A stretch of 52,856 nt of DNA, taken from positions 1-52,856 of the forward strand of contig JAQXZB010000024.1 in NCBI GenBank assembly GCA_029226975.1, written 5' to 3'. The stretch comes from Clostridiales bacterium. Its GTDB lineage: Bacteria; Bacillota; Clostridia; UBA1381. The translations under genes were made by a program, and so were the position numbers. Position 1 is the first letter of the stretch, and the number at the start of each line of letters is the position of its first letter. Under the pieces are notes generated by a model. The model saw nothing but the letters and a program-made list of their open reading frames with translations. It was not told the origin of the DNA and did no database searches. This document shows positions 18,834-44,625 of this stretch, one piece after another.

Positions 18834-18864
18834 CTGCAAATTCTTGTATAAAAACTATACTTTT
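18834..18864 (-). promoter_or_regulatory. Operator C: AraC-type site, one strong half
   Basis: The distal half AAAAGTATAG (18855-18864) is identical to operators A and B and lies the same 50 bp from the -10. After 11 bp the proximal half (18834-18843, GAATTTGCAG) is degenerate, matching the AAAAGTTAAG of A and B at only half of its positions. It abuts the -35 as in the other two. Confidence 0.65.
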
Positions 18865-18879
18865 GTGCATAAAGAATTT
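18838..18879 (-). terminator. Possible hairpin terminator of the GH65 gene overlapping operator C
   Basis: AAATTCTT (18872-18879 read on the minus strand) pairs with AAGAATTT (18838-18845), enclosing a GTATA/TATAC stem. It begins directly after the GH65 stop codon. The U-run is poor, so termination would be partial. The same bases carry operator C. Confidence 0.35.
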
Positions 18880-21096
18880 TTACATCGATTTTGTCATCGT
18901 TTTTTCACTGCTTACAAAAGCTTTATTGCCGTTAAAGATTACCTTAACCTCGTCCTTACTGTCTGTAGTCAAGGTATATTCTCCGTTTTTCATCAAAACA
19001 GAGAATTTCGCCCCATGATACATAAAGCTAAACTCAACCTTTTCCCACCACGGCATCATATGCGGATTTATCTCTATATGCTTTTCGCGGCATACAATCC
19101 CCGCAATTCCTCTGAATACCGCATACCATGCGCCCACAAGGCAGCCCGAATGAACTCCCTGCCAGCCGCATTTATGTATATCGTAAACATCTATATACGC
19201 CGTTTCAATAAGATAATTATACGCCGATAACATTCTGCCGTTATCTGCCGAGCATATCGAATGGGGTGCAAACGACAGCGATGATGAGGATTCGCACATC
19301 TTCTCATAATAATCCCAGTTTGCCGCGTAATCCGAATTTTCGGGATTTATATTCAGATAGCTGTACAGAAGCATAACATCGGGCTGTTTGATTATCTGAC
19401 TTTTATGGTAAAGTCCCGACGATTTCATCTGAAAGTTGACTGCGTTATTACCGCCCGCCTCCTCAAGAGAGCGGCTTAGGTCAAAATAACCGTCAAACTG
19501 CGGAATCATACCGTTTTTATCCAAGGGCTGATACAGCTTATCGGCAATCTCACTGTAGTCATTTTCCATACCGAACATTTTTGCATATTCCGTTACCTTG
19601 TCCAATACGAACTTGACAAGGTAATTTGTGTATGCGTCATTATCCACATACGGGTGATGCTCGTCCGTACCTGTCACACAGCGTATCTCATATCTGCCGT
19701 TATGCCACTCAACCCGGCTTTTCCAAAATTCGCACAGTTCCGTAAGCATTTCCATTCCGTAATCACGCAGAAAATCAATATCGCCCGTTACTGTATAATA
19801 ATGAATTATTCCCCAGGCTATATCGGCGTTTATATGAATTTGCATAAACGGGTGACGCGCGTATATCCACACTCTCTCATCGCCCTCAACAGATGAACAG
19901 AATGCATATTTTGCTCCCTTAAAGCCTGCCTCGCACGCGTTTTTCTTTGACTGTTCCAGAAGTCTGTAACGATACATCAAAATCTTTTTTGCCGTTTCAG
20001 GCGCGGTGTATATAAATATCGGAAGCTGATACACCTCGCAGTCCCACCATACAAAATCGTTATACCTTTCTCCGGTCAAGCCCTTTGCGGCAACGGAATG
20101 TATGCTGTCGGTATGGGACGCGGAGATAAGCGAATGGTAATTTGCAAATCTTATGCCCGCGTCCGCCTTTTCATCGCCGCTTATATGAATATCAGCCATT
20201 TCAAACGCCTTGCCGTATTTTTCCATATGCCGGTTAAAATACTCGTCATATCCTAATGTTTCCTCATGGGGAACGGACACATCGCCCTCCCTGGACGATA
20301 CGATATGTACGCATTTTTCAACAGTGTATTCCCTGCCCTTTTCAGACTCAAAGCCTGCAATATTATAAATCAGCCCGTCCTCCGATTTGCCGTTCCATTT
20401 AACCTGTGCCGGAGATATATTTGTAACCGTTGTTATGCCTGTTTCAAAGCCGTATTTCTTTCCCATAAGCGTATGAACATATGTCATATTCTCTTTTACG
20501 CTCTCGCTTAATAAAGAGGTTATTTTCTGACCCCCGGTTTTTACACGCTTATCTATACCGGACATCACCTCCACTCTCTTGCTGTGATTAACCGGTGTAA
20601 TTTTGACCTTTAGGCAATATACATGGTCATCGGCATAGGAGGAAAACCTTTCAAAGGCAAAATCCGTTATATCGCCCTTGCTGTTTTCCCAACGCACATT
20701 TCTTACAAGCCTTGCGGTTTCAGGCTCTATATACCGCTCCCAAAAAATAAGCTTACCTTCCCAGGGATAGAAGGTTTCACCGTCTATGCTTATTCTTATG
20801 AGCAGAAAATCCGGGTTGTTTATAACGCTGTCCTGATACTCAAATTCCTTAAGCTTATCCTCATCGATATAATATTTTTTCATATATTCATTATCGGGAA
20901 ACGGCTCCATAACCTCAATTATTTCGTCTATAACCCCGCGGATATATGCGCCCTGAATTCTTAACGACCCGTATTCCTCAAAGCTTCCCCGCACACCGAT
21001 ATAACCGTTTCCGGTGGTAAAGAGGGAGGCGTTTAGAGCCTCATCCTCAATATGATATTCTTCTTCAATAAATCGCTTTGATGTTGCCTTAAGCAT
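18880..21096 (-). CDS. GH65 family disaccharide phosphorylase
   Basis: A 738-aa cytoplasmic enzyme of glycoside hydrolase family 65 (maltose, kojibiose, nigerose or trehalose phosphorylase type). These cleave alpha-glucosides with phosphate to beta-glucose 1-phosphate. N-terminal beta-sandwich 'TGNGYIGVRGSFEEYG', then the (alpha/alpha)6 barrel with 'FVWWDCEVYQLPI' and general acid Glu479 in 'CVTGTDEHHPYVDNDAYTN', then 'QIIKQPDVMLLYSYL' and 'SFAPHSICSADNG', all family signatures. No signal peptide. ATG at 21096 has a perfect AAGGAGG; the ORF 18 codons longer has none. Specificity cannot be read from sequence. Its stop is followed by the promoter C region. Confidence 0.9.
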   Translation of the reverse strand: MLKATSKRFIEEEYHIEDEALNASLFTTGNGYIGVRGSFEEYGSLRIQGAYIRGVIDEIIEVMEPFPDNEYMKKYYIDEDKLKEFEYQDSVINNPDFLLIRISIDGETFYPWEGKLIFWERYIEPETARLVRNVRWENSKGDITDFAFERFSSYADDHVYCLKVKITPVNHSKRVEVMSGIDKRVKTGGQKITSLLSESVKENMTYVHTLMGKKYGFETGITTVTNISPAQVKWNGKSEDGLIYNIAGFESEKGREYTVEKCVHIVSSREGDVSVPHEETLGYDEYFNRHMEKYGKAFEMADIHISGDEKADAGIRFANYHSLISASHTDSIHSVAAKGLTGERYNDFVWWDCEVYQLPIFIYTAPETAKKILMYRYRLLEQSKKNACEAGFKGAKYAFCSSVEGDERVWIYARHPFMQIHINADIAWGIIHYYTVTGDIDFLRDYGMEMLTELCEFWKSRVEWHNGRYEIRCVTGTDEHHPYVDNDAYTNYLVKFVLDKVTEYAKMFGMENDYSEIADKLYQPLDKNGMIPQFDGYFDLSRSLEEAGGNNAVNFQMKSSGLYHKSQIIKQPDVMLLYSYLNINPENSDYAANWDYYEKMCESSSSLSFAPHSICSADNGRMLSAYNYLIETAYIDVYDIHKCGWQGVHSGCLVGAWYAVFRGIAGIVCREKHIEINPHMMPWWEKVEFSFMYHGAKFSVLMKNGEYTLTTDSKDEVKVIFNGNKAFVSSEKTMTKSM

Positions 21097-21153
21097 ATAA
21101 ATCCTCCTTTTTTGGTTTGTCACCGTTCTGTGCGGTATACAGATCTGCACCTA

Positions 21154-23700
21154 TTACTTATAGATAACGGTACAGTACGGTATTGACCATGAATTACATA
21201 TGAGGAGCTTTGAACAAAAATCTCCCGCATCCTTTCTTGTAATTATATCACTATGTGCTCCGAGGCTTACCATATCTCTTGCATTGGTATCGCATATATA
21301 AACCGGTTTCTCCCAAGTATGTGCAATATACTCATCAAGATTTTGACCTTCACCGGTCTGTATAGGCTTTATCCTCATCAATAATCCATCCATATCAACC
21401 ACTTCTGCCATTATAGAGCTTCTCTCGGCAGAATAATCACCAAGAGCGGTAAGCGCCAGTGATTGTTTTCTTTCGGTATTGCCCGTATAAACAGGCTTGC
21501 CGTCTATAACTCTTGCAATCACCTGGGCAGATTCAATTTCGCCTTTGTCAATTGCCGATGAGTTTACTCGTATTACATCGCCTTTTTGAAGCACGCACAT
21601 CTCCGTTCCGTCTTCTGTAGGAAATTTTTCGTCTTCATCGCTGTCAAGAAATTTTCTTTTACCGTCATGGTAGATAGTAATTCTTCGCACAATGTCATTA
21701 TCATCATTTATGGCAATTGACGTATCGGCTACTATTCCGACATAGTTACCTCCGGAAACGCCAAGACCGGGAGCCTCAAACATTATACCCACATCCGATA
21801 TCATGGAATCGTTTGAAATCGAATAAAGCTCTATCTTATCCGACAATTTATCATTTTCCAGCTCGCTGTATAAGTTTGATACAACCTCAAAATCTTTTTT
21901 TGATGCCGTAACGATCATTTCATCTTCGGGAACCTTAAGCAAGATCGATTTATTATTCTGCAAAACAGCCTTACCTGCCAACATATAATAACCGTTATGT
22001 TCCTTTACATGCAGCTGTGCCAAAGCTCCCTCTGCATATGACGAGTATGTAATATGCAGTGAATCCTTAGTTTCTTCCGTTCCGGGCTCTTTTGTCATAT
22101 CGTTCCTGCTGTTATACGAGGTATCAAGATAGCTGATTTCCTTTTCTCCGTTTATTCTAAACGCCATAAGCTGATAAATGGTTTTTCCCGAATTTGTCAG
22201 CACATTAAGTATTGCCGAATTCTTTTTGTACTGAATCCCGTCAAGTTTAACCTTTTGTGCCAGTTTGTAGGTTACAATATCCTCAGTCTGCACATCATAG
22301 CACTTGATATACACACGATCGTCATCTTCGCCTTCCCAAACCTTTGTGATGTAACCGAAGCTGCATTTTTCCGTTTCTGTTTCAAAAAATACAATCTGCG
22401 ATTTATGGTTAAGGTAGACCGTAACATTATCCCCGGCTTTGGGCATGGCGTCTTGGAAAGATGAATCGAATTTGATTTCATTATCGTTTATCTGTACCCA
22501 TGTTCCGTCACGCTCTATTACCGCTTTAACCGTTCCGGAAATACTGTCATCGGAAATGGTTATGGTGCGGAAGTCGGCACATTCCGTAACCGATACAATA
22601 TTTCCTTTAGCTATATCGTCTACACTTGCCAAAGTCCCGTCCATACGCTTAAAAACAGTATCATCATCGTATTCAATCACATTTGACGTGTCGTTTTTAT
22701 CGTATATCCTCTTAACAATCTTATCAATATTTGATACTGCCAAATATCTGTAGCTTACTACGTTTACCACATCATATTTACCGTCACCGTCAGAATCGTT
22801 GAGCATAACCGTTCCCGATGTCGGCTTCATCATAGCATCGGTGTATTCAGATGCCGGTCTGTAATTGTAAATCACATATGCATCAGCATTAAATGACGCA
22901 GTCTTTGTCTTGCCGTTTAACTCATAGGTATATTTTTTTGAAGCGTACGAAATTATATCTTCCGCATCAATTATCAACACCTTATCGTTCTTTTTCATTT
23001 GCGCATAAAGAAGTGTAGGTATGTCCCCGTCATTATAATCTTTGTAATAATATGTAACCGAGCAGCCTATCAATTCATCGGTGTAAAGACCTTCCGAATA
23101 AAACACCGTATCATCGATTCTTACATAGCCCTCGCGCATTGAATAAGCTTTAGACAAGGCAATCTCACCGCTTGCATAAATCAGACCGTTACCTTTATAA
23201 ATATGCATAACATCCTCAAGATAAATCTTATCAGAAACCACATAATCACCGTTGAAGCAGTCTCTGATTGCTTTTGCATTAAGGGTATTATAGACAAGAA
23301 TAACAGCGTTACCCCAAGTAAGCGCACTGCTTGATGAAGCACCGGAGGTAATACCGAGTTTTGCTGCCTGCTGCATATAAGCAGCCCTGCCGCCTCCCGA
23401 TGACCTTATTATCGGCTCATAACCCAGAATATCCACAAGCGCCATAATCATATCATCGGTACTGACCGAATCACCGCCAAAGGAAATTGCATTCGGGCTG
23501 ATTTCCCCCAGCATATCCATGGCCGCACCCGGATCAACCAACTCCTCCGGCTCAAACTCTATACCGCTGTCCACAACTCCCCAAGCCTTTAAAAGCTCGC
23601 ACTTATTTTCAACAGCGTCATTTTCATCTGCAAAAACAGAAAATGCAACAACAGGACATATCATAACAACCGCCAAAAAAATTGCAATAATTCTTTTCAT
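21154..23700 (-). CDS. Large secreted protein of unknown function (degenerate SLH-like N-terminus)
   Basis: An 848-aa exported protein that I do not recognise as an enzyme. Signal peptide 1-24 (MKRIIAIFLAVVMICPVVAF). The next ~140 residues look like degenerate S-layer homology repeats ('CELLKAWGVVDSG', then 'MIMALVDILGYEPI' and 'AAKLGITSG'). The remaining ~680 residues are beta-rich with recurring short strands ('YYKDYNDGDIPTLLYAQ', 'VNVVSYRYLAV', 'VIERDGTWVQINDNEIKF'), compatible with small OB- or SH3-like repeats. Two ATGs lie 6 nt apart. The first touches AGGAGG, so the second (23700) has the workable spacing and is chosen. It lies 19 nt after the SLH gene. Confidence 0.6.
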   Translation of the reverse strand: MKRIIAIFLAVVMICPVVAFSVFADENDAVENKCELLKAWGVVDSGIEFEPEELVDPGAAMDMLGEISPNAISFGGDSVSTDDMIMALVDILGYEPIIRSSGGGRAAYMQQAAKLGITSGASSSSALTWGNAVILVYNTLNAKAIRDCFNGDYVVSDKIYLEDVMHIYKGNGLIYASGEIALSKAYSMREGYVRIDDTVFYSEGLYTDELIGCSVTYYYKDYNDGDIPTLLYAQMKKNDKVLIIDAEDIISYASKKYTYELNGKTKTASFNADAYVIYNYRPASEYTDAMMKPTSGTVMLNDSDGDGKYDVVNVVSYRYLAVSNIDKIVKRIYDKNDTSNVIEYDDDTVFKRMDGTLASVDDIAKGNIVSVTECADFRTITISDDSISGTVKAVIERDGTWVQINDNEIKFDSSFQDAMPKAGDNVTVYLNHKSQIVFFETETEKCSFGYITKVWEGEDDDRVYIKCYDVQTEDIVTYKLAQKVKLDGIQYKKNSAILNVLTNSGKTIYQLMAFRINGEKEISYLDTSYNSRNDMTKEPGTEETKDSLHITYSSYAEGALAQLHVKEHNGYYMLAGKAVLQNNKSILLKVPEDEMIVTASKKDFEVVSNLYSELENDKLSDKIELYSISNDSMISDVGIMFEAPGLGVSGGNYVGIVADTSIAINDDNDIVRRITIYHDGKRKFLDSDEDEKFPTEDGTEMCVLQKGDVIRVNSSAIDKGEIESAQVIARVIDGKPVYTGNTERKQSLALTALGDYSAERSSIMAEVVDMDGLLMRIKPIQTGEGQNLDEYIAHTWEKPVYICDTNARDMVSLGAHSDIITRKDAGDFCSKLLICNSWSIPYCTVIYK

Positions 23701-23724
23701 ACTCATCCTCCTATATTATCCAAA

Positions 23725-25359
23725 TCAATTAACATCATACAAGCTTGATATGATGACAGCCACCTGAGCACGCGTAGCATATGAATATGGCATAAAGCTT
23801 CCGTCTATACCGTTTACAATTCCGTTTTTTGTCAAAATCTCCACGCTTTCAAGTGCATAATCGGCAATCCCGGACTTGTCGGCAAACTCGGTAATGTTCT
23901 GTCCCTTTGATAAATCTTTTCCGGCAAGCTTTGCTGCGCGGCACGCAATAACCGCCATATCCTGTCTTGTAATATCCTGCCCCGCACCAAATTTATTATC
24001 GCCTATGCCCTGTATAATTCCTGCCTCTACCGCCGCGGCCACATACTCATAATACCATGCATTTTGGCTCACATCGGCAAAATCCGCCTTAGCACCGGAT
24101 TTTTCCAGACCGAATGCAGTCAATATCATTTTTACATATTCTTCCCTTTTTACATTGTTATTCGGAAGAAAAGTTCCGTCGTCATATCCATTTATAACGC
24201 CAAGCTTAAAAAGCTTTTCAATATGCGGTTTTGCCCATGAAACAGAATCAATATCGGTAAGCACAGAGTAAGAATTATATTCCTTAACGGGCGCCTGATG
24301 TATGGATCCGGTGCCTGATGCGGATGACGAACCGGAAGATGAACCGCCCGAACCGCTGCCGCCGGAGCCGCCGGATTGAGGCTGCAATGCCGCCGCAACC
24401 GCCGACTGATACGCTGTTTTAATACCCGCCGAAGATGATATGTTTGCATTTAGCATATTGGAATATACGGTTATTTCATTTGCTGTTGTATTTAATGTAA
24501 TTCCCAAAAAATCTTTATTTTCCTCAACCACTTTCTTCATATCGCCCCAGCCGTTGGCATTGCTTGCCGCCTGTACCAAAACCAATTCCGAAAACTTTGA
24601 CCGAAAATCATCCGCACTTTCCACTTTATTTTTGGAAAATTCATTAAATACTGTTGTTCTTATCCCATCGCTCAACAAATCGGTATATGTTTTATAAGGC
24701 GAATAATCTTGAAGTCTCAGAACTGTTTTATTATTATCAAGCACTGTCTTTAATTCATCCGACGATGCCGCATTATATATCTCGTCAAGGGCAACAGCCT
24801 CTCCTGCCGCAATTTTAAAGGATGCTGTGTCATACTCATTGCCGGATGCAAGAATTTCGCAGATATATCCCAAATCTCTCGATGTGTCCGAAAAAACAGA
24901 ATACATAGATTCATTTTTGTCAAAAAGCACATTGATATTATTGACTGCTGCATTTTTCATATCAGCAGATGACTTGTTCTTTGATGCGGTGTTTATCTGC
25001 CCGATGGCACTGTCCGTACTTCCGTAATAGTCAAGCTTTGTTGAATACGGGATTTTAATATTGCTTTCGCCCACCAAAACATCATATGTGCATGGCTCTC
25101 CCAAGACCTTAAAATTTATATTATATTTCCCGGTATCATCAGATGCTGACTGGTCTTCAAATACAATCTCACCATTCTTTAAAACACGAATGGTTATCTG
25201 TGTATTTTTTTGAGCTGTGCCCGAAACCTCAGCCATATATGTGCTTCGGTCATAGGTACAGCTTGTAATATCAGCATATGCGACTGTGCTAAAAAGCACA
25301 ATCGCCGCTGTCGCTGACAAAATCATCTTACTAATATTCAAGCTTAATTTCTTCAACAT
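23725..25359 (-). CDS. SLH-domain cell-surface protein
   Basis: A 544-aa exported protein. Signal peptide about 1-29; an Ig-like domain about 30-110 ('SCTYDRSTYMAEVSGTAQKNTQITIRVLKNG'); a helical middle region; a Gly/Ser linker around 333-353; and three C-terminal SLH repeats ('SWAKPHIEKLFKLGVINGYDDGTFLPNN', 'AWYYEYVAAAVEAGIIQGIGDNKFG', 'YALESVEILTKNGIVNGIDGSFMP'). It should sit on the S-layer polymer. Its start overlaps the end of the WbsX/GH99-like gene by 29 nt, implying translational coupling. In context it may be the wall anchor or scaffold of the locus, but I see no cohesin or dockerin. Confidence 0.85.
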   Translation of the reverse strand: MLKKLSLNISKMILSATAAIVLFSTVAYADITSCTYDRSTYMAEVSGTAQKNTQITIRVLKNGEIVFEDQSASDDTGKYNINFKVLGEPCTYDVLVGESNIKIPYSTKLDYYGSTDSAIGQINTASKNKSSADMKNAAVNNINVLFDKNESMYSVFSDTSRDLGYICEILASGNEYDTASFKIAAGEAVALDEIYNAASSDELKTVLDNNKTVLRLQDYSPYKTYTDLLSDGIRTTVFNEFSKNKVESADDFRSKFSELVLVQAASNANGWGDMKKVVEENKDFLGITLNTTANEITVYSNMLNANISSSAGIKTAYQSAVAAALQPQSGGSGGSGSGGSSSGSSSASGTGSIHQAPVKEYNSYSVLTDIDSVSWAKPHIEKLFKLGVINGYDDGTFLPNNNVKREEYVKMILTAFGLEKSGAKADFADVSQNAWYYEYVAAAVEAGIIQGIGDNKFGAGQDITRQDMAVIACRAAKLAGKDLSKGQNITEFADKSGIADYALESVEILTKNGIVNGIDGSFMPYSYATRAQVAVIISSLYDVN

Positions 25360-28300
25360 TTACTGTTCCCACCTCATTAGAAAATACTATTTTTATACTG
25401 TCAAGTTCATTTCCCGTCCAATGAACCGGAACATTATACTCAATCACATCTTTGGAATACGGCTTAATATCAAATATGGTTACCGAGCCGCCGCTGTAAA
25501 GAGACTGATCCTTTAACTTGTAATAAATCTTGGCATACTTTGCGCCTGTATTGTTGGCAAATTTAACCTTTACATTTTTAATTCTGCCCGCCTTCATTCC
25601 AAGCTTTGCCGGTGACTCTGCCCATGCCTCATACGCCTTTGTCTTAAGTGTCACAAAATCACCTTTGCCGCGCTTTGAATAAAAGCTTCCGCCGAATTTC
25701 CATTCGTTTAAGGTATCATCTGACGCCCGCCATGTAACATTCTTTATGGTAAAATATGCCGCATTTTCCTCTTCATTGTATTTAGCCTCCTTTGCACCGA
25801 GCGGTTTTACAAAAAATTCAACCGGTGCATAAAGATTATCCCCATACATTTCAAAAGGATTTTCAAGCTCATACTCTACACTGTTAACCGAATATGTCTT
25901 CTCGCCCGCTTTTACCTCGTATATATCCTCTCCGACCGCAAACTTGAGATTGTCATATCCCTTTGTTGTCCAGTCAAACTTTGCGTCTTCTCTGAAATTC
26001 TTGACGACATCCGCAATGTTAACCATTCCGACACCGTTGATATTTGCAACCTCAATCGGGACAATTTCACCGTCTGAAACCACTAACCCTGTCGGGTCTT
26101 CAAGGTCTCCGAGCAGCTCAATGGAATCAATCCATACTTCTCCCTGACCGTCAAAGGGGTCGTAACGCAGCGCATTCATGGTACCTGTCCAAAGCTTATT
26201 TGTGCTTGTCTTTATGTATATGTCCTGAAAATCACCGTCACTCATCATTGCTCTGAAGTTATAGTTCCATACATATTGATTCATTGACGGATTTCTAAAG
26301 AAGAACTCTGTCATTTTTGCAGTTTCCTTGCTTGCCTTTATGCGCACTTTAATGTAAGCAACCTCGTCCATATTGACATTTATGTTGTTTGCAAACATCA
26401 TCGTGTCCTGACCTGTCGACTTGTAATGAAGCGTTCCGTCTTCAATGGAAGGATCCACTTTACTGCTAAAGGTCCATCCGTCAAAGCCCGTATCAAAATA
26501 CCAGCCCTTTATTACCTTTGTAGGGTATTTCGCAGCGGCTCCTCCTGCCGATGTCAAAAAGCCTTCTCTGTCCTGGTCATAAAGCACATGAATTCTTGAA
26601 AGCTGATTTTCCGTCGGCAGCTCGTGCTCATGAGCCACATCCTCACCTCTGTCGCAGAAATATTTTCTGATAGATTCCATTCTGGTCCAACCATATCCGG
26701 ATTTCATCGGGCCTACATAATGTCCCTCGCCTATTTCATTCCAGTTGTCTATCATTACTATCTTTTTGGCACGCTCGCCTTTTGCAATCTTTGGTGCATA
26801 TTCGTTTGCTATCCACTTACACATAGCGTCAAAGGTCTCGACATCGGTCATGATACCTTTTTTTCCAAGCCAAGGCTCTGCATCCATTCCCGTAACGGCA
26901 ATTCCAAGCATATCAAAATCATTTTCGTTACCCTGAAGCATCATGCTCTGCGCATAGCTTAATGTCGTACCCGACGCTCCGTCCAGTCCGTAAGGACAGC
27001 CGCAAACAAAGCCCAGTTCCTTTAACACATCAAATCCGACACCGTTTGAGCCTGTTACCGAAGAAGTCCAAAGCTCAACGCCGTCAAAGCCCTGTCTTAT
27101 ACATTCTTCTTCAAACCATTTAAGCGTTTCCTTGGCTACCGCAACCGTTTCTTCTGTTACTTCCTGATCTCTGTTGCCGCTTAGCTGTCCGATAAAATAT
27201 TTTACCTGGTATATATTTACAACAGGCTTGTTGTTATATTTGTAAAAATTCGGGTCTTTAAAATAATATTCTATCCAGTAGGGTACAACAAAATCCTTGA
27301 ACATTTCGGGAGATTTAATCGACGCTGTCAAGTTTTCAAAAGTAAAGGTATATTTTTGCATATCCTTGTACTTTGACATTTTAAGTCCGTCCTCCAAAGC
27401 ATAGCTCCAGTTAGGCGTTTTAATCGGATTTGCATAAGAGCCGTCGGGCTTAAACCAACAGAACATCTGAAAATCAACGCCATGCTCTGCCATATACTTT
27501 GTTTCCCAGTCATTTACCTCGGGATTGCCCTCATCATAAAATCCCAAAACCGGCTCTCTTTCCGGATAAGGCTTGATCTTATCCCAGCCGTAACCCTGTT
27601 TTCCGCTTCTCCATAGAGAACAGCTCCACATTCCCACCTCAAGAGGTGAGTTTACTTTTTGCGGCTCGCTCACATAGTCCTCCGGTTCGGGGAGCATGGG
27701 ATATATTTGAATATCATCAAGTCCGATATTGATATTTGCTCCGCCAATCGCCTCAAACCGAACCATGTTCCTTGCTTTACCTGCAAGAGGAGCATTTTCC
27801 AGTCTCTTTATATTATTAAGATATACATCGCAAAGTCCCTTGCTGTAATCGGCTATTACTTTTACGTTATACCAAAGATTTTTATAATAATTTGTATAGA
27901 AGGTCTGTCCGTTAAAGGCAAAAGCGTCATTATCCATCGTGATTGTCATACCGTCGCCGAAGCTTGCCTTAAAGCCGCCCTTTTTCTCGGTATCGATAAC
28001 CATATATTCAAACGCCACCAAATCGTCCGTCACATCCAGCTCTCTTGAATAGGAAAGCTCTTTTCCGCTTCCGTCAGACTTAAATCTGATATTTGAAACG
28101 TCCATCCAAAGCTGACTGTTCATTTGCTCAATCGCAATACTTCCGCCGTCCTTAACAGCCTTGAAGGTCTGTGGAAGCGCGTTGCCTATTAGAGATGAAA
28201 CATGAGTTTCATTTACCCAATAGTTACGGTAGCATCTTACAACCGTTATGTATAATTTTCCTGTTCCCTCTTTGGTTGATATAAACTGAATACCGTTAAT

Positions 28301-28900: not shown

Positions 28901-28915
28901 TTACGCAAAACCTCC

Positions 28916-31048: not shown

Positions 31049-31092
31049 ATTAGTTGTTCCTTTCAAGTTCATTTTTAGACCTCATTATAAAT

Positions 31093-31165
31093 GAAAGAAC
31101 GGGAATATTATATATTTATGATTTTCTTTAGACTTTAAAATAATTATGATATTCCCATTCTTTTC
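31093..31165 (-). other. Large imperfect hairpin downstream of the binding-protein gene
   Basis: GAAAGAACGGGAATAT (31093-31108) is complementary, with one mismatch and one bulge, to 31149-31165. The loop is about 40 nt and itself partly paired. No proper U-run follows on the minus strand. It lies between the solute-binding-protein stop and the next gene and may stabilise the 3' end of the upstream message. Confidence 0.55.
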
Positions 31166-31182
31166 TCTGCTACATTATAAAA

Positions 31183-35261: not shown

Positions 35262-35365
35262 CTTCCTTTCTCCGATTAAATTGCCCAAGCATCTTTATGT
35301 ATTGCCGAGAAAAGCGGGACAATACCAACGATGTTTTGTTCAATTCTCACATATTTTACATGTTC

Positions 35366-35394
35366 ATTATACCATCAAGTTGTTATCAACTCAA
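35366..35394 (-). promoter_or_regulatory. Promoter A of the saccharide locus
   Basis: On the minus strand TTGAGT (35389-35394), 17 bp, TATAAT (35366-35371), about 100 nt before the start. The spacer contains AGTTG-ATAA-CAACT, a small inverted repeat. It drives the binding-like protein, the solute-binding lipoprotein and the genes after it to GH65. Confidence 0.8.
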
Positions 35395-35425
35395 CTTAAC
35401 TTTTTGTCTTTTAAGCTATACTTTT
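35395..35425 (-). promoter_or_regulatory. Operator A: 21-bp-period direct repeat
   Basis: Read on the minus strand, AAAAGTATAG (35416-35425), 11 bp, AAAAGTTAAG (35395-35404), the second abutting the -35 of promoter A. Both halves and the spacing are identical to operator B. Two direct half-sites two helical turns apart next to -35 is the usual layout for AraC-family activators. Confidence 0.75.
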
Positions 35426-35460
35426 GGTAATCCCCCCCTTTTGAGAGTTAAATCATAGCC

Positions 35461-38400
35461 CTATTTCATTCCAACCACACTGCTTTGCGGTGTAAAATCC
35501 TGTGTGTTCCATAAAAATGCCTTTATTTCATCATTGGAAGAAGCATCCGCACTAAGAGATGCCGTCAGCTTCTTTTGTTTTAGTCCTTTATCCTCCGAAG
35601 CCTCAATCCTGTCCGTTTTAACGCTTATCAGTCTGCCCTCGTTATATTTCGCAATAACAAGAATATAGCTTTCGCCTTCCCTGTAAAGCTTGTCCGCAAC
35701 TGCCGTGATTTCTCCAGATGTAATATTATCTTCCGTTATATATTCCTCATTATCACTGCCGTATCCCTTTAACATATAAATTTCATTACTAAGTACGCCT
35801 ATGTCATTGTTTGTATAGGACATTTTCAGATTGTCTATATAAAATCCTCCTCCGGCGGCATTGCTTAAAATGTACAGTTGCGGCAGCCATACTCCCGCAG
35901 GCTCATCCTCAATTGAAAAGGTGAATTTATATGTTTCAAAGTCATCCTTCAGCTTGTATAAGTTTGTAATTTGCTTATTTACAAGTCTCCCGTCGGTGTA
36001 ATATGAAATATAGAACGAGAGAGTTTTCGACATACCCGGATACAGCCCCTTCAAATCAAGCGAAACTGTATATGTCCTGTTTTTATACTGCTGATCTTCC
36101 AAAATCGGCAATCCGAATTTGATATTTCCGCCCTCAGGGCTGCCAACCGCAACCTTAAAGCTGTACTCTCCTCCGGACGCGGTCTCATTGGTTCTTTTAC
36201 AGGTAACCAAATACTGACTTAATATTGAATATTCATTTTTTAAAGTATCGGTTGGTTCTTTCTCAAAATCATAGCACATCAGCGCTGTTGAGAAGGGATA
36301 CTCCGCTTCACTTACTGCCGCTCCGTTTTCGCCGCATACCGTATCGGGAACGACTATCCTATAAGATGTATGCTCTGACAATCCGTTTTTCGGAGTTAAT
36401 GTGACGGTTTTTCCGTCCGCCGATAATGTGTTTTGGCTGGGAATTACCACATCTCCCTTTTTTATGACTATCTGAGCTATGCTGCTTTCCGAAACGGCTT
36501 TATCAAAGGTTATATACGGTTTAACATTTGCATTTGCAAGGCTTTCTCCGTATACCGGATATGAAGATACTATCACCGGTGCATTGTAATCAATGCCCGC
36601 GTTATCCCCTACGCTTACCGCATTTTTATTTTCTATGTATGATACTCCGTAAGGCGCTGTTAATTCTCCCAGAAAATCAATCGGTGCATACATAATTCCG
36701 TCCTTTAGCTTAAACGGATGATTTAGCTTGTAAACAACCCCGTTTTTTCTGTATCCCTTCTTGGAGTCACATACCTCATAGGCATCCTTGCCGCACACAA
36801 ACGTCAGTTTTTCTTTTTTGTCCGTTTCCCATTCAAATTTTGCATCTTTAATGGTTTTTGCCGCACTCACAAGCGGAACCATAGGCACAGAGTCAATAAT
36901 TGTCGGCTCTATCGGAATAATCTCATTCTTATATGCTATACTGTTTTGCGGATTGGTAAGATTTCCGATTAAGGTTATTTCATCTATCCACATTTCACCG
37001 CCTTTTCCGTTAAACGGATCAAACCTAATGCCCTTAATCGTTCCTTTCCAATATTCATTTGATGCTACGTTTATATAATAATCCGCCCAGTCGCCCTCCT
37101 GCACAATAAAGCTGTATCGTCTGTTCCAGTCAATTTCCGTATATTCATCGGTCAGGAAATACAGTTCGGCTTTACAAGGCGTCTGTGATGACCTTTTCAG
37201 GCGCAGCTTAATATATGAAACATCCTCTGCGGGTATGGACAAATCCGTTACTTTTATCCACGGGTCATCACCTGCCGCTTTAAGATACCATGCACCGCCC
37301 GTAACAGAGCTTTTTTCAAGATGGTCATTCGTCCATCCCGAATTGGATAATTCAAAATCCCAGCTTTTAACTATATTATCCGAATATCTTTCGGGAACAA
37401 TATTATTTACTTGTTTGTAACCCGTTCTGTTTTGGTCATACATTATCTGTATTCTTTTTGCCTGATTTGCTGTCGGCACTGCATCACTGTGCTCCGGTGC
37501 AGCGGGACATAAATATTTTCTCATTATATCAAGATAATCCCAGCCGTTTCCTTCGGACGGGCATATATAATGACCCTCGCCAATCTCATTCCAGTTATCT
37601 ATCACTACCATATTTTTACCGTATTGACCCACGGCAATATTTGGCATATACTCATTTATCGTCCAGTTAAGCTGTTCTTCAAAGCTTGCCTTTGTTGTCA
37701 TCTGCCCTTTCACGCCATCCCAGGGCTCCTTATCCATACCCATGCCGGGTCCGGTAACCAAATCAATTCCATATCCCGCCATTCTTTCAGACATATTCTT
37801 CATATACAGCGCACTTGCACCGTCGGCTCCGTCCCAACCGTATGGATGCACCGCATCTATTCCCAGCTCCGTCAATCTTGCCGGATCGATATAATTTTCA
37901 TAGCTTGCCGAACAGCTCATAATAACCGCACCGTCAAACCCCGCTTCTTTGCACTTTTCTCTCAGATAATCCAAAACATTCTTTGCGGACGTATAGTGTT
38001 CATCTAACGGCTCCGTATATATTGCATTTACCTGCTGAACAAATTTTTTAAGATTATAAATAGAAATAACGGGCTTATTATCTATTTTATAATATCGTTC
38101 ATCCTTAAAATAATGTTCAATCCAATACGGAACAATATTATTTTTAAAATCGTCTGCGCCCTCAATCGAAGCTGTTAAATTCTCAAACAGGATACAATAC
38201 TTCATCATATCGGAATATTTTGAATTTTTATATCCGTTTTCAAGGGCATAGCTCCAGTTAGGCGTCTTTATCGGAGTATTTTGCGTACCGTTCGGCTTAA
38301 ACCAACAAAACATCTGAAAATCCGCGCCATGCTCCACCATCATTTTTGTTTCCCAGTCCGAAACCTCCGGGTTTCCCTCGTCATAATATCCCAGAAGCGG

Positions 38401-40314
38401 CTTCCTTTCGGGATAAGGCGCTATTCTGTCCCATCCCATCTGTTTTCCCGGTCTCCATAAGGAACAGCTGATTATTCCTACATCCTGCTTGGACTCGGCC
38501 TTATTCGGTTCGGGGACATAATCGGCAGGCTCTTCCAGCATAGGATAAACAAAAATATCATCCAGCATCACATCTGCCGCGTTCTCCTGCGCACATTCAA
38601 ATTTGATGCCCTTATTATTTCCCGAAAAATACATTCCGCCCTTTTGCAAAATATCGTTTACATACAAATCGCAGACCCCTTCTTTAAAGTCGGCTATGAC
38701 CTTAATCCTATACCACAGATTAGTCACATAATTACTGTAAAAAATCTCATCACCGAATTTAAAGCAATTATTATCTGTGGAAATTTTTATTCCGTCGCCC
38801 AAAGAAGCACTGATTTTTGAATTTCCCACGCTGTCGATTACAAAAAACTCAAATGCCGCAGTGTTTTCTTCTATTTCAAAATCATTCTGAAGTGAAATTG
38901 CCTGCTCATTTTCATTTTTTTGCAGTCTTAGGCTATATTGGTCAAACCACAGCTGAGATGAAGAATGTACCACCGAAGCATTTCCGCTTTTTACAAAGTA
39001 TGACGGTACGGTTTCACTTCCGCTTTTTGTTGAAACAAAGGTTTCATTAACATAATAATCGGTATAAACTCTTAGTGGGTATATGTATATACATCCCGTT
39101 TCAGCGTCGCTGCTTGAAAAAAATACATTATCCACACACTCGCCCGACAGCGCAATGTCATCACCGCACAGCTTTCCGTTTATATACACATCGTAGGTTT
39201 TTGTATCGAAATCTCCGAAAATTTTTACTCCGTATTCCGCCTGCGCTCCCGGAGTGTAGTTTTGCGCCAATTGTTCATCAACGGTATAATCACATAAATA
39301 CACGTCTTGTGACGGTGTCTGTGCATAAATAGCTCCGGACATGGTTTTCAGACTTATAACAGGCGTTTCGCCGTTCCTGATCTGCCATTTAAAGCCGTCT
39401 ATATCATCGGTAAAATAGAATCTGTAATCCACTGCAAACCTGCCCGAATCGACGCTTTTAAAATCATGCTTCATATCCACCGAAAGATATTTATTCGTAT
39501 CCTTTAAATAATACCTTCCCCATTGACTGGACACCTCTCCGCCCGCTTCATGGACATCCCAGCCGCTGCCTCCGGGTGTTCCGATGGAGTAAAACATATC
39601 GTCCTCTATCAGATACTGTCCGCCGGGAAGCATAAAATCAAGAGGTGCGGCAGATTCACCTTCCAATTCTTTAACGATAATCTCTTCAATTTTGAAATTC
39701 ACATTTCCTATCGGCTGAAATCTTAACGAATGTTGACCGGGGCTGAGATATACCACCTTTGAATAGGTATGACTTCTTCCGACAGTATCAAAGTACATAT
39801 GCATTCCGCCCGGTCTTGCCTCCGTAACATCCACCGCTTCATATTTGCTTGGGCTTGTTACGCTGGGAAGCTCATCCATTGCTATTTTTAAGCCTTGTCC
39901 GGCAGTCGCCGAATTATGCTTGACCACAAAATTAATCTGATAATGCTTGGCGGTATTTCCTGTTTCGTTCACGGGAATATTGACCGCCAATCTTTCATGG
40001 CCTAACATATTCACACAAAGACTTCCGCCTTCGATATACATCTGCTCGGCATTGGGATACCGGCCGCCGCCCTCACCGTTTTGAAAATATGAATTCCATC
40101 CGGTATGCTGAAACACAAACGGATAGCTCATGCCGTCAAAATACTTAAATTGTGCGGTCGCTCCCGTACTTGTATCATATACATATTCCTGACTGCTTTC
40201 AGAGTCAAAGGTGTATTGCATCACGATTTTTTCAGATGCCGAAAATGCAAACGGCGTCAATACACTCATAAGAATGTTTACAATAACGAACATAGATATT
40301 ATTTTCTTTTTCAT
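35461..40314 (-). CDS. Giant secreted WbsX/GH99-like multimodular protein
   Basis: A 1617-aa exported protein. Signal peptide about 1-26; binding-like sandwich about 28-220; a stretch about 226-1240 that parallels the whole smaller paralogue (25331-28900), from 'FMLPGGQYLIEDDM' through two LamG-like domains, the WbsX/GH99-like core (about 608-960, acidic motif 'NWNEIGEGHY' at 908-917), a binding-like module and a copper-amine-oxidase-like stalk domain; then an added Big_5 Ig-like domain (about 1250-1345), another binding-like module ending 'GGFYIDNLKMSY', and the C-terminal module ending 'IKAFLWNTQDFTPQ'. So the larger protein is the smaller one wrapped in modules of the other locus proteins. 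ATG 40314 has the proper spacing to GAAAGGA; the ATG 6 nt upstream touches it. It lies 33 nt after the permease. Confidence 0.72.
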   Translation of the reverse strand: MKKKIISMFVIVNILMSVLTPFAFSASEKIVMQYTFDSESSQEYVYDTSTGATAQFKYFDGMSYPFVFQHTGWNSYFQNGEGGGRYPNAEQMYIEGGSLCVNMLGHERLAVNIPVNETGNTAKHYQINFVVKHNSATAGQGLKIAMDELPSVTSPSKYEAVDVTEARPGGMHMYFDTVGRSHTYSKVVYLSPGQHSLRFQPIGNVNFKIEEIIVKELEGESAAPLDFMLPGGQYLIEDDMFYSIGTPGGSGWDVHEAGGEVSSQWGRYYLKDTNKYLSVDMKHDFKSVDSGRFAVDYRFYFTDDIDGFKWQIRNGETPVISLKTMSGAIYAQTPSQDVYLCDYTVDEQLAQNYTPGAQAEYGVKIFGDFDTKTYDVYINGKLCGDDIALSGECVDNVFFSSSDAETGCIYIYPLRVYTDYYVNETFVSTKSGSETVPSYFVKSGNASVVHSSSQLWFDQYSLRLQKNENEQAISLQNDFEIEENTAAFEFFVIDSVGNSKISASLGDGIKISTDNNCFKFGDEIFYSNYVTNLWYRIKVIADFKEGVCDLYVNDILQKGGMYFSGNNKGIKFECAQENAADVMLDDIFVYPMLEEPADYVPEPNKAESKQDVGIISCSLWRPGKQMGWDRIAPYPERKPLLGYYDEGNPEVSDWETKMMVEHGADFQMFCWFKPNGTQNTPIKTPNWSYALENGYKNSKYSDMMKYCILFENLTASIEGADDFKNNIVPYWIEHYFKDERYYKIDNKPVISIYNLKKFVQQVNAIYTEPLDEHYTSAKNVLDYLREKCKEAGFDGAVIMSCSASYENYIDPARLTELGIDAVHPYGWDGADGASALYMKNMSERMAGYGIDLVTGPGMGMDKEPWDGVKGQMTTKASFEEQLNWTINEYMPNIAVGQYGKNMVVIDNWNEIGEGHYICPSEGNGWDYLDIMRKYLCPAAPEHSDAVPTANQAKRIQIMYDQNRTGYKQVNNIVPERYSDNIVKSWDFELSNSGWTNDHLEKSSVTGGAWYLKAAGDDPWIKVTDLSIPAEDVSYIKLRLKRSSQTPCKAELYFLTDEYTEIDWNRRYSFIVQEGDWADYYINVASNEYWKGTIKGIRFDPFNGKGGEMWIDEITLIGNLTNPQNSIAYKNEIIPIEPTIIDSVPMVPLVSAAKTIKDAKFEWETDKKEKLTFVCGKDAYEVCDSKKGYRKNGVVYKLNHPFKLKDGIMYAPIDFLGELTAPYGVSYIENKNAVSVGDNAGIDYNAPVIVSSYPVYGESLANANVKPYITFDKAVSESSIAQIVIKKGDVVIPSQNTLSADGKTVTLTPKNGLSEHTSYRIVVPDTVCGENGAAVSEAEYPFSTALMCYDFEKEPTDTLKNEYSILSQYLVTCKRTNETASGGEYSFKVAVGSPEGGNIKFGLPILEDQQYKNRTYTVSLDLKGLYPGMSKTLSFYISYYTDGRLVNKQITNLYKLKDDFETYKFTFSIEDEPAGVWLPQLYILSNAAGGGFYIDNLKMSYTNNDIGVLSNEIYMLKGYGSDNEEYITEDNITSGEITAVADKLYREGESYILVIAKYNEGRLISVKTDRIEASEDKGLKQKKLTASLSADASSNDEIKAFLWNTQDFTPQSSVVGMK

Positions 40315-40346
40315 AGTCATTCCTTTCTCATTTAACAACAACTTCA

Positions 40347-41222
40347 TCATCCCTTAACCGAGCCAACAGTAAGTCCTTGTACAAAATATTTTTGAAAGAA
40401 CGGGAAAATCACAAGCATAGGTCCTACAGCCAACAAGCACATTGCCATTCTCGCCCCCGCCTGCGGCACTTCCTGTCCCGCCTGTACGGCGCCGTACTGC
40501 AGTGCTTCCGCACTGTTTAAAAATTCTATCGAGCTTTGTATCCGCATCATCAGATATTGCAGCTTCACAAGCTTCGGGTCGTCGATATAAAGCATCGAAT
40601 TATACCATTCATTCCACGAGGCAAGCAGATAGAAAAGAGCTATTGTCGCCACTGCCGGTTTTGAAAGCGGTATAACAATCCTGCCGAAAATTTCAAACTC
40701 ATTGGCACCGTCAATCTTTGCAGACTCTATAATTTCATAGGGTATTGAGCTGAAAAATCCCTTCATCAGCAGTATATACCACGATGACACAAGCCCCGGC
40801 AAAATCAGCACCAAAATTGAGTTTTTCAGTCCGAGAAACTGTGTTATGTTTATGTAGCTTGCAACCATTCCGCCGTTTAACAGCATGGGAACAAACATAA
40901 TAAAGGTTAGTACATTTCGATATTTATAATCCTTTCTCGTCATGACGAAAGCACACGAGGATGACATTACAGTTCCCAGTACCACAGATACAGCTGATGT
41001 GAAAATCGTTATTATGTACGATCTTACAAGCGAATCGGGACTTGCCAGTATTGCTTTATATGACGCAAGCGTCGCTTCCTTAGGTATTATCCTGTATCCG
41101 TTACTGATTAAATCATTTTGGCTTTGAAAGGATGAGCCTACTATAATCAAAAACGGAAGTACAAATAAAATTGATGTTATTATCATGATTACATGAATGC
41201 CCATATGCGTTTTCTTTTTCAT
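40347..41222 (-). CDS. CUT1 sugar ABC transporter permease (LplC/YtcP-like)
   Basis: A 291-aa inner-membrane permease with six hydrophobic segments and the EAA loop that docks the ATPase: 'EIIESAKIDGANEFEIFGRIVIPLSKPAVA' (residues about 180-209). The C-terminal 'MRIQSSIEFLNSAEALQYGAVQAGQEVPQAGARMAMCLLAVGPMLVIFPFFQKYFVQGLTVGSVKG' end is typical of the LplC/YtcP subgroup. It pairs with the permease encoded 22 nt upstream and with the lipoprotein at 31183-32661. No ATP-binding subunit is encoded in the window. Confidence 0.94.
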   Translation of the reverse strand: MKKKTHMGIHVIMIITSILFVLPFLIIVGSSFQSQNDLISNGYRIIPKEATLASYKAILASPDSLVRSYIITIFTSAVSVVLGTVMSSSCAFVMTRKDYKYRNVLTFIMFVPMLLNGGMVASYINITQFLGLKNSILVLILPGLVSSWYILLMKGFFSSIPYEIIESAKIDGANEFEIFGRIVIPLSKPAVATIALFYLLASWNEWYNSMLYIDDPKLVKLQYLMMRIQSSIEFLNSAEALQYGAVQAGQEVPQAGARMAMCLLAVGPMLVIFPFFQKYFVQGLTVGSVKG

Positions 41223-41243
41223 TTTATCACCACTTCCTTCTAT

Positions 41244-42173
41244 TTAAAATACCGCGTTTTCATCATCGAGCTTCTTTACAATTCCGTTAGAAATCACAAC
41301 CAGTACAAAGCCCACAACTGACTGATACATTGTTGCCGCCGATGACATACCGATATCGCCGAGGTTTATAAGTGCACGGTATACATATGTATCCAAAACA
41401 TCGGTTGTGCTGTATAACAGCGACGAGTTAAGCGGAAGGTTATAGAACATACCGAAATCTCCGCTGAACATTTTGCCTATGTTCATTATAAGCAGCAGCA
41501 CCACTATTCTCTTAAGGCACGGCAAGGTTATATATTTTAACTTTTGCAGGCCGTTGGCACCGTCAAGATCCGCCGCCTCATAATAGGTTGTATCTATCGA
41601 CATAAGCTCCGTATAGAAAATAATCACGTTATACCCCATGTCTTTCCATATTTTTGCCACGACCAGTATAACCGGCCAATATTTAGGATCACTGTACCAA
41701 AGCACCGGCTCCATTCCCAATTTTCCCAATATATTGTTGATTATTCCGTATTCAACATCGAGAAATCCGGAAAGGGCAAAGCTCGCCACAACCCATGAAA
41801 TGAAATATGGTATAAAGAATATCGTTTGATATGTTTTCACCGCGCGTCTGCCAAGCTGAAAGAGCATAATCGCAAAAGCAATGGCAAATATCAATCCCAT
41901 AATAATAAATATAACATTATACAAAACGGTATTTCTTGTGGCTTTTAAAACATCTTGCCCGGAAAACAGATACTCAAAATTCTTAAATCCCACCCACGGG
42001 CTTTTAAAGAAACCAAGATCATATCTGTAATTCTTAAACGGCAATATAAAACCAAAGTATGGTACATAGTTAAAAATAATCATAAATGTTACTGCCGGCA
42101 GTGCCAGCGCAGTAAGCTGCCAGCTCTTTAAAAAGTCCCCGGCAAATCTTTTTTTCCTTTTTACTCCATTCAT
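41244..42173 (-). CDS. CUT1 sugar ABC transporter permease (LplB/YteP-like)
   Basis: A 309-aa permease, partner of the preceding entry. The N-terminus 'LTALALPAVTFMIIFNYVPYFGFILPFKNY' is typical of the LplB/YteP group, with six membrane segments and an EAA loop 'YYEAADLDGANGLQKLKYITLPCLK'. It is 15 nt downstream of the regulator gene and 22 nt upstream of the other permease, so regulator and transporter form one operon behind promoter B. Confidence 0.94.
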   Translation of the reverse strand: MNGVKRKKRFAGDFLKSWQLTALALPAVTFMIIFNYVPYFGFILPFKNYRYDLGFFKSPWVGFKNFEYLFSGQDVLKATRNTVLYNVIFIIMGLIFAIAFAIMLFQLGRRAVKTYQTIFFIPYFISWVVASFALSGFLDVEYGIINNILGKLGMEPVLWYSDPKYWPVILVVAKIWKDMGYNVIIFYTELMSIDTTYYEAADLDGANGLQKLKYITLPCLKRIVVLLLIMNIGKMFSGDFGMFYNLPLNSSLLYSTTDVLDTYVYRALINLGDIGMSSAATMYQSVVGFVLVVISNGIVKKLDDENAVF

Positions 42174-42187
42174 AATTTCACATCTCC

Positions 42188-44401
42188 TTATACTTTCCTT
42201 CTATTATTTTTTCTAAATTCCGTAGGGGTCATTCCACATTTTTCCTTAAAACGCTTATAGAAATATGTGTCGTTTTCTATGCCTATGCTTTTTGAAATAT
42301 CCTTTATGTTCAAATCACTGTTTAACATAAATTCTTTTGCCTTCTGTATTCTGAAGTCTATCAGATATTCACTGAAGCGCATACCCATTTCTTCCAAAAA
42401 CATCCTGCTCAGTTTTCGGGTAGATATTCCTACGTTTTCAGCCACTATTGTAATGCATAAATTTGCATCGGAAAAATTGTTTTCAACAAAGTCTATGGTT
42501 GTGCGAATTAAATCCGAACTGTTTGAGCCGCCCTTATAGTCTCCCTCTTCCGCTGCAAATTTTAATCGAATGTCCTCTTTTACCATTCCAAGAACATCCA
42601 TGATTGTCAGCTCAACATTGGGATTTACCAGGTTGACCATAATTTCAGGATTTAATTCCAATCTTTCTCCAAGCACTTTAGTGAAACAAATTATTTCAAG
42701 AATGCTTCTTTCATAGGAAAAGTCCATTATCCTTTTAAAAATATTATCTACTACTTCAAGAGTACTTTCCTCGGTAATACACCTTTTGAGTTCTTCCTCA
42801 TATCTTAAGGTGCTGATACCCTCTCCGTCTTCTAAATGCCCCTCCGGATTATCGTTAAATTCAAAGAATTTTCCGCCGCCGAAATTGAACGTAAATTTAA
42901 GATTATTCAATGCCTGAGCCCTCGCCTGGGATATTCCGTCAATTCCGTTGGATACGTCGCTTACGGACATCGAAATAACCGTATTGAAATGTGTAAGCAT
43001 ACATTCGCTTATTCTGCCAAAACAGCTTCGCATTTTTTCTACATAATCTTTCGACGTGACGTTTAGCAGAAGCTCAATATCATCGCCCATAAAGAACTGC
43101 GATTCCATATCATACACTTCTCCTATAATTTCAGTGGAAATATTATACAGCGCATAGCTTATCATGCCATCCTTTTGACCCACATCATCATCTATTCTGT
43201 TTATTCTCAAGATTATAACCGCAAAATTTGAATCTATCGGTATATCAAGATATGAAAAATACCGCTCTATCGTTTTTTCGGACAGTTTATCGCTGTTTCT
43301 CATGATTTCTCTGAAGCTGTAGCCTTTAACAATTTCTTCTTCACTCGAAAGCCTGTCGCTGTATTTTTTATTTTCAATTCTGTATCTTTTTAAGACCTCT
43401 TGTATATATTCTATCTCGTTAATTTCTCCCACCTGTACAGTTGCCACCTCTTTAAATATACCATCTATAGGTTTATAAACCACCTTTATAACATACAGTG
43501 CAATTATTATTCCTATAAAAGCAAACATTATAATAAAAATAATAATGGTCAAAATATACGCCCGCATTTCCGGATATGCCTTTGTTAAAGAAGCAATGCG
43601 GCACATAACGATTCCTATACCACCAAAGTCCTCAAAGCATAAAACGTATTCTTCACCGCCTATTATTTTGTTTTCAAAATCCTTTTCTTTATAATTGTTT
43701 ATTGCTGTTTCATATACATCCACTCCTACGCTTTCCCCTTTGGAAAACAAAATCTGTTTATCCTCATCAAATACCGCCACACTTCCTATATTGTCCTCGA
43801 ATATGGAATTATACAGCCAGTCAAAGTCTATATTTATAATGAAAAAATCCGAATTGTCCGAAAGCGTATTTTCCCCGAACATAAAATACGAAAATACTTT
43901 CTTCTTTTTCAAATCGTTATTTTCATAAAAAGTCATATCTCTTACCATGAGTTTTTTTGGTACAATTCTATGAGCTTCTTCCAGGATTTCATTAAGCTGT
44001 ATTTCTCCTTCGGGCAAAACAGTTCCCACACCAAAGAGCGTTTTTTTATCACTGTCATAGTACTGCACCGAATTCAGATACGGATTTATCGACTGAACAA
44101 CACTGTATATATCTCTGATTTTTCCGTAAACCCTAAAATCTTCATTCTTAAAATTAGCCCTGCTTAACACAATTTCACTTATGTAAATATACTCTGCCAG
44201 ATTTTCCAATGTATCACTTTCAGCCATAAAATTTTGTTTAATCTGTTTTGTGCTTCTGCGATAATCTTCATTTATATAATTTTTCAATATCTTAGACGAA
44301 TACAAATAATTTGTAAAATTTGACAATACTGCCATCAGCACCAACGCAGCAGCAACAATCCAAATTATCCGCCTAAGATATTGCTTCTTTAATTTCTTCA
44401 T
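42188..44401 (-). CDS. Membrane-bound AraC-family regulator (YesN/YtdP type)
   Basis: A 737-aa one-component sensor-regulator. TM1 about 11-29, an extracytoplasmic sensor of about 250 residues, TM2 about 281-307, a cytoplasmic linker, and a C-terminal AraC/XylS double helix-turn-helix about 632-735 ('CITIVAENVGISTRKLSRMFLEEMGMRFSEYLIDFR', then 'IKDISKSIGIENDTYFYKRFKEKCGMTP'). Such proteins sense outside glycans or a loaded binding protein and activate nearby sugar genes. ATG 44401 is preferred: GGGAGA stands 10 nt upstream, inside the longer frame starting at 44419. It is the first gene of the operon behind promoter B, and its own promoter bears the same operator as promoters A and C, suggesting positive autoregulation. 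Confidence 0.9.
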   Translation of the reverse strand: MKKLKKQYLRRIIWIVAAALVLMAVLSNFTNYLYSSKILKNYINEDYRRSTKQIKQNFMAESDTLENLAEYIYISEIVLSRANFKNEDFRVYGKIRDIYSVVQSINPYLNSVQYYDSDKKTLFGVGTVLPEGEIQLNEILEEAHRIVPKKLMVRDMTFYENNDLKKKKVFSYFMFGENTLSDNSDFFIINIDFDWLYNSIFEDNIGSVAVFDEDKQILFSKGESVGVDVYETAINNYKEKDFENKIIGGEEYVLCFEDFGGIGIVMCRIASLTKAYPEMRAYILTIIIFIIMFAFIGIIIALYVIKVVYKPIDGIFKEVATVQVGEINEIEYIQEVLKRYRIENKKYSDRLSSEEEIVKGYSFREIMRNSDKLSEKTIERYFSYLDIPIDSNFAVIILRINRIDDDVGQKDGMISYALYNISTEIIGEVYDMESQFFMGDDIELLLNVTSKDYVEKMRSCFGRISECMLTHFNTVISMSVSDVSNGIDGISQARAQALNNLKFTFNFGGGKFFEFNDNPEGHLEDGEGISTLRYEEELKRCITEESTLEVVDNIFKRIMDFSYERSILEIICFTKVLGERLELNPEIMVNLVNPNVELTIMDVLGMVKEDIRLKFAAEEGDYKGGSNSSDLIRTTIDFVENNFSDANLCITIVAENVGISTRKLSRMFLEEMGMRFSEYLIDFRIQKAKEFMLNSDLNIKDISKSIGIENDTYFYKRFKEKCGMTPTEFRKNNRRKV

Positions 44402-44565
44402 TTCATACTTATCTCCCATAAATTCTGCCGGAATATAACGCCGGTCGAAACAACATTTTTATAGTACTCAATTTCTCCGTTTTTATAACTCCGTTACCTT
44501 GTCATGTATAAAGTCACTTTCGCTTGTCGTTGTTTCTTTCCTAAATTATGTTGTTTTACCATATA

Positions 44566-44594
44566 ATTATAGCACAGCAAAATGCCCAAATCAA
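44566..44594 (-). promoter_or_regulatory. Promoter B of the saccharide locus (regulator/transporter operon)
   Basis: On the minus strand TTGATT (44589-44594), 17 bp, perfect TATAAT (44566-44571). The leader to the regulator start is about 160 nt. The arrangement of -10, -35 and operator is the same as at promoter A. Confidence 0.82.
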
Positions 44595-44625
44595 CTTAAC
44601 TTTTCTTCCTGCCAACTATACTTTT
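44595..44625 (-). promoter_or_regulatory. Operator B: 21-bp-period direct repeat
   Basis: On the minus strand AAAAGTATAG (44616-44625), 11 bp, AAAAGTTAAG (44595-44604), joined directly to the -35 of promoter B. The 11-bp spacer differs from operator A while both 10-bp halves are identical, which argues for selection on the half-sites. Confidence 0.75.

Follow-up and report, generated by a model that had tools for sequence, protein, structure and literature searches.

A candidate operator shared by promoters of a GH65 and WbsX locus that encodes a putative transmembrane AraC-family regulator

At the E. coli pBAD promoter, activation depends on araI1-I2, a direct repeat with a 21-bp period whose proximal half lies at the –35 box; AraC itself is a soluble protein with an intracellular arabinose domain and also engages in looping with araO2. 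Beside the sugar transporters of anaerobic Gram-positive bacteria, one commonly finds AraC-type regulators with membrane segments, to which, to our knowledge, operators have rarely been assigned. For Caldicellulosiruptor, a published study describes AraC-family activators of sugar loci whose tandem-repeat sites precede the promoter, and reads the single-component AraC regulators of C. bescii, which have such repeats upstream of mapped promoters, as activators (PMC8579813). Here we describe a locus within a stretch of 52,856 nt (the window, that is, the whole of the DNA analysed) in which a membrane-anchored AraC-family activator very likely controls the locus and itself via a AAAAGTATAG-N11-AAAAGTTAAG operator; both binding and activation are what we infer from the sequence.

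The gene at the head of the locus (42188–44419, minus strand; start at 44419 or 44401) encodes a regulator of 743 aa. Its C-terminal domain contains the two helix-turn-helix (HTH) motifs characteristic of the AraC/XylS family (PF12833 [HTH_18], E = 5e-20, residues 660–737; PF00165, E = 1.8e-11); HTH domains were the only ones that Pfam recognised in the protein, with no receiver or kinase. Hydropathy peaks near residues 18–36 and 288–314 mark membrane segments, the ~250 residues in between are predicted to lie outside and, with its orientation in the membrane predicted in this way, the regulator fits the transmembrane one-component AraC-type class. A structure prediction from two sequences (mean pLDDT 40.6) was confident solely in the HTH segment (~77–89), whose best solved matches are the YesN-type response regulators 3lsg and 6swi. 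The regulator resembles these proteins in the type of its C-terminal HTH and in its link to ABC sugar transporters, but differs from the YesN-type regulators of CUT1 operons in that sensor and DNA-binding domain would reside in one membrane protein, with neither kinase nor receiver involved. Unlike in E. coli AraC, the sensor is here predicted to be extracellular, and no distant site was found.

The locus carries three promoters, all on the minus strand, which we named P1, P2, and P3. Following the regulator gene—and, like it, on the minus strand—are two ABC sugar permease genes (BPD_transp_1; 41244–42173 and 40347–41222) and the gene for a large WbsX-domain protein (PF14307; 1629 aa, with Big_5 and CBM-like domains; 35461–40350). 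The first gene after P2 encodes a Big_5 surface protein (32727–35288), succeeded by an ABC solute-binding protein (31183–32661; with a DUF3502 C-terminus and matches to solved solute-binding proteins), another Big_5 surface protein (28916–31072), a second WbsX-domain protein (25331–28900), an S-layer homology (SLH) protein (23725–25359), an 850-aa protein with no Pfam domain and a homologue in the G218 locus introduced below (21154–23706), and a GH65 enzyme (18880–21150), whose closest solved relative is kojibiose phosphorylase and which is 73–75% identical to its homologues in G218 and G063. P3 precedes a Big_5 protein (17021–18754) and the last gene of the locus, encoding a Big_5/pectinesterase-like repeat protein (13624–17016). 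The GH65 enzyme suggests alpha-glucobiose phosphorolysis as the substrate route, and the WbsX proteins, together with a GH38 enzyme in G218, suggest alpha-mannosyl links in the substrate. In Caldicellulosiruptor (PMC8579813), PecR, PecR2, and HemR likewise possess an AraC-type HTH, have their genes in a sugar locus alongside a CUT1 ABC transporter, and have large-spacer tandem-repeat sites upstream of the promoter, a likeness of arrangement, whereas the WbsX, GH65, SLH, and Big_5 surface proteins distinguish the present locus from those described there.

Four gaps of more than 100 bp lie within the locus or at its start (44420–44917, 35289–35460, 31073–31182, and 18755–18879), three of which carry a site, and the terminator-like matches of a minus-strand scan between 13.6 and 44.4 kb all fall within coding regions. 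Given the gene order, the short gaps, and the lack of clear minus-strand terminators between genes, it is plausible that P1–P3 together would serve all genes between 44.4 and 13.6 kb. A search of the window for RNA families (Rfam) returned none, and the P1 leader folded no better than shuffled sequences. In the gap after the solute-binding protein gene (31073–31182, minus strand), the sequence folds as a long hairpin whose arms measure 15 bp each (z = –2.15) and which may serve in transcript stabilisation or processing.

P1, located 5′ of the regulator operon, reads TTGATT-17-TATAAT (44566–44594; 10/12 matches, with TG before the –10), P2 reads TTGAGT-17-TATAAT (35366–35394), and P3 reads TTGTTT-17-TATAAT (18805–18833); their –10 boxes start at 44571, 35371, and 18810. 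Exact copies of the distal half-site AAAAGTATAG occupy 44616–44625, 35416–35425, and 18855–18864, and the proximal half-site AAAAGTTAAG adjoins the –35 at both P1 (44595–44604) and P2 (35395–35404). At these two promoters the halves of the tandem are 8/10 identical and form a direct repeat with a 21-bp period, that is, two similar halves about two helical turns apart, with none downstream of the –35. P3 departs from this pattern in its second half, as the proximal position (18834–18843) is taken by the degenerate GAATTTGCAG, in which five of ten bases are kept. The spacers between the half-sites, each of 11 bp, differ in sequence (4/11 identical per pair). As at E. coli pBAD, two direct-repeat halves thus recur with a 21-bp period, and their centres—near –41 and –62, if transcription is assumed to start seven bases past the –10—are close to araI2 and araI1.

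Most of this was anticipated in a preliminary description of the same DNA, which had named an AraC-type regulator as the first gene of the locus, AAAAGTATAG at three minus-strand promoters (near 44.57, 35.37, and 18.81 kb), AAAAGTTAAG 11 bp after it and abutting the –35 at two of them, a degenerate second half at the third, spacers that differ while the halves stay the same, and a –35/–10 spacing of 17 bp in all. It had also placed AAAAGTATAG at one and the same offset to the –10 at all three promoters, which holds; the distance itself had been put at 50 bp through a counting slip, and measures 54 bp from start to start.

In a chance test, the 93 TATAAT hexamers of the window (both strands) were aligned as –10 boxes and exact words at the same offset were collected from the 100 bp upstream. 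The pairs among P1, P2, and P3 yielded the three longest matches of 4278 pairs (14, 12, and 11 bp; next 9 bp), and among all triples the match shared by P1, P2, and P3 ranked first in length, at 10 bp (next 7 bp). Throughout the 2.8-Mb genome, the tandem AAAAGTATAG-N11-AAAAGTTAAG was found at P1 and P2 only, with up to two mismatches allowed; one further match surfaced at three mismatches, in an unrelated place and unlike a site. The composite AAAAGTATAG-N44-TATAAT had three genomic matches and no other in this genome at one mismatch, and three of the 16 exact genomic copies of AAAAGTATAG—those of P1, P2, and P3—had TATAAT at +54. The other 13, none with TATAAT at this position, were rejected; seven of them (L034, L039, L040, L045, L046, L048, and L049, near position 1501) share a dispersed repeat (ATAAAGCGAAAAAGTATAGCAAATAAGCC...), which may form the end of a mobile element.

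The half-sites are A-rich and placed where UP elements lie, as they might be if the likeness of the three promoters came from common A-rich UP elements or from duplicated promoter regions. Yet outside the half-sites, the –35, and the –10, identity among P1–P3 amounts to only 25–38%, arguing that these promoters are not recent copies and that duplication is not the cause. As the spacers diverge too, the combination of half-site and –10 is unique in the genome, and the non-A/T half-site core GT..AG is conserved in G218, we find such an origin hardly credible.

Homologues of the regulator were sought in 391 genomes of the class, with a threshold of E ≤ 1e-30, at which the protein was found in G000 and G218 only. 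The genus, the family, and the order yielded no close relative of it, and a peptide-pattern search for it across 84,980 species gave no match. The homologue in G218, a genome of the same class and a different family, is full length, 23–24% identical, and of the same architecture. Its locus shares with that of the window the permeases (51 and 54% identical), the solute-binding protein (46%), and the GH65 enzyme (73%), as well as relatives of the WbsX, SLH, and 850-aa proteins (25–30%). Three G218 promoters bear related sites: AATAGTATAG-ttaaaatgca-AAAAGTACAG-TAGACA-17-TATAAT (contig position 37483) before the genes for the solute-binding protein, the regulator, and the permeases; AAAAGTATAG-taaaaatgca-AAGAGTATAG-TGGACG-17-TATAAT (45890) before a GH38 alpha-mannosidase gene; and AAGAGTACAG-ttaaaatgca-TAAAGTACAG-TAGACA-17-TATAAT (13490) before GDSL-type hydrolase genes, with a GH3 gene further down. 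While the half-site period is 20 bp in G218 versus 21 bp in the window, the –35 contact, the 17-bp spacing, and TATAAT are kept, and all three promoters, like P1 and P2, combine a tandem of similar direct-repeat halves about two helical turns apart with the class II position, the proximal half adjoining the –35 and none lying downstream.

A weight matrix built from the six G218 half-sites only was then used to scan both strands of the window at periods of 19–23. Among all tandem positions, P1 and P2 came out on top, while P3 was ninth; once a –10-like hexamer was required 53 or 54 bp away, P1–P3 headed the 2352 positions, each scoring 15.1 bits against 7.2 for the runner-up. With the reverse matrix, derived from the window sites, the top two ranks went to G218 promoters and the remaining G218 promoter came seventh. 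The conservation of the operator draws on a single comparison locus, G218. The preliminary description had seen in the element an AraC-type direct repeat beside the –35 that is read by the regulator of the locus; it had named a genome-wide motif scan and conservation of the half-sites before orthologous loci as checks, and occurrence at many unrelated promoters as evidence to the contrary. The scan confined the tandem to P1 and P2 with no such spread in this genome, the same half-sites abut the –35 at the three G218 promoters, and this conservation, along with the reciprocal matrix scans, supports the proposed assignment. Most G218 half-sites are preceded by AAAATGCA (L094 8491–8462, minus strand, and the two other promoters), with a 20-bp repeat unit TTAAAATGCAAAGAGTACAG, and these upstream bases hint at a half-site longer than 10 bp.

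Applied to the 391 genomes of the class, the strict pattern AAAAGTAYAG-N10-11-AAAAGTWNAG matched P1, P2, and the interior of one ABC ATPase gene; the latter, an exact tandem match in G365, was discarded as a promoter site because of its position inside the gene. Across 84,980 species, the exact pattern had two matches only, both in Bacteroidota. A further locus, in G063, contains GH65 (74–75%), WbsX, SLH, and permease genes and encodes a 407-aa soluble cupin-type AraC protein instead; no such element was present in the upstream regions examined of this GH65/WbsX locus. With the site in G218 and none in G063, the element goes with the transmembrane regulator rather than with the enzymes. Two looser candidates were rejected. 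One, a promoter match with a single mismatch in a relative from the same genus (G001, contig C98), is followed by an apparent tRNA gene and was taken as chance. The other consists of tandem AAAAGTACAG repeats in G068 (contig C47; L086 8533–8600), where four AAAAGT(A/T)NAG units, spaced 21, 21, and 12 bp, stand before a solute-binding protein gene whose neighbour encodes a LuxR-type (GerE) regulator and no AraC relative.

With 48 AraC-type HTH matches in the genome, sequence alone leaves room for another AraC-type regulator, be it a paralogue or a two-component response regulator, that would bind the sites and have the regulator gene of the locus merely as one target; many AraC-type sugar regulators are indeed response regulators, as stated in the Caldicellulosiruptor study (PMC8579813). 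Nevertheless, we deem this improbable, given that this locus is the only one in the genome with the operator, that the G218 operator again occurs with the homologous transmembrane regulator, in an operon headed by a site, and that neither the window locus nor the G218 locus has another recognisable DNA-binding protein.

Since the same arrangement recurs at three promoters and in the related cluster of a distant bacterium, one switch probably turns on the whole cluster. An oligosaccharide or the loaded solute-binding protein is the probable signal for the extracellular part of the membrane-anchored regulator, which would then, through the membrane, render the cytoplasmic domain competent. A regulator dimer, or two DNA-binding domains, could then occupy the two direct-repeat half-sites on one helix face, consistent with the 21-bp period, and because the proximal half touches the –35, RNA polymerase may receive direct assistance, by class II activation of the kind seen at araI1-I2 of araBAD. 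In this manner, P1 would switch on the regulator, the permeases, and the WbsX protein; P2 the surface proteins, the solute-binding protein, the WbsX, SLH, and GH65 proteins; and P3 two more Big_5 proteins, this promoter—with one good half—being expected to be weaker or to need more regulator. The sites are limited to the locus and, in both the window and G218, the regulator gene sits in an operon headed by a site, so that positive autoregulation of the predicted activator fits both loci.

Were the regulator to act there as a repressor instead, the position data alone would be compatible, and some AraC-type proteins do repress without ligand. However, both loci have their sites entirely upstream of the –35, the activating position for AraC-type proteins, and the –35 hexamers are weak—most so in G218 (TAGACA, TGGACG)—and hence fit promoters that need an activator. 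The same reading was made for all four start-mapped single-component AraC regulators of C. bescii, located upstream of the promoter (PMC8579813), and repression seems to us highly improbable.

Taking the regulator as an activator, a more far-reaching and rather doubtful scenario would have the half-site word and the –35 contact kept while the regulator diverged to ~24% identity, the period changed from 21 to 20, and a gradation among the promoters arose, with two full sites and one half-site. The regulator would then have to keep three promoters, separated by 9–26 kb, at the membrane and might draw the whole locus towards the cell surface. Irrespective of this, the activator and its operator would constitute a new regulon, solidly supported as a prediction, under a kind of control that is already known. 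Sequence conservation makes the operator assignable to a named regulator and, with half-site, position, and target list defined, the regulon is directly testable. Moreover, the otherwise unannotated WbsX, SLH, and Big_5 surface proteins are grouped with the GH65 enzyme and the ABC transporter as one pathway.

Both flanks of the locus offered minor observations. The divergent GH3 gene (44918–47683, plus strand) encodes its domains in swapped order, with the C-terminal domain at residues 19–271 and the N-terminal catalytic domain at residues 503–755, and has its own strong promoter (TTGACT-17-TATAAT, 44731–44759) with no half-site. Just upstream of the P1 operator, a GC-rich inverted repeat (CCGCCGACTTGGCGG, 44656–44670) is followed by a T-run on the plus strand, and the two read as a plus-strand terminator before the divergent GH3 gene. 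Past the other end of the locus lies a radical SAM gene (12568–13467, minus strand), of which a 60% identical homologue is found beside the G063 GH65 locus (L096), on the other strand.
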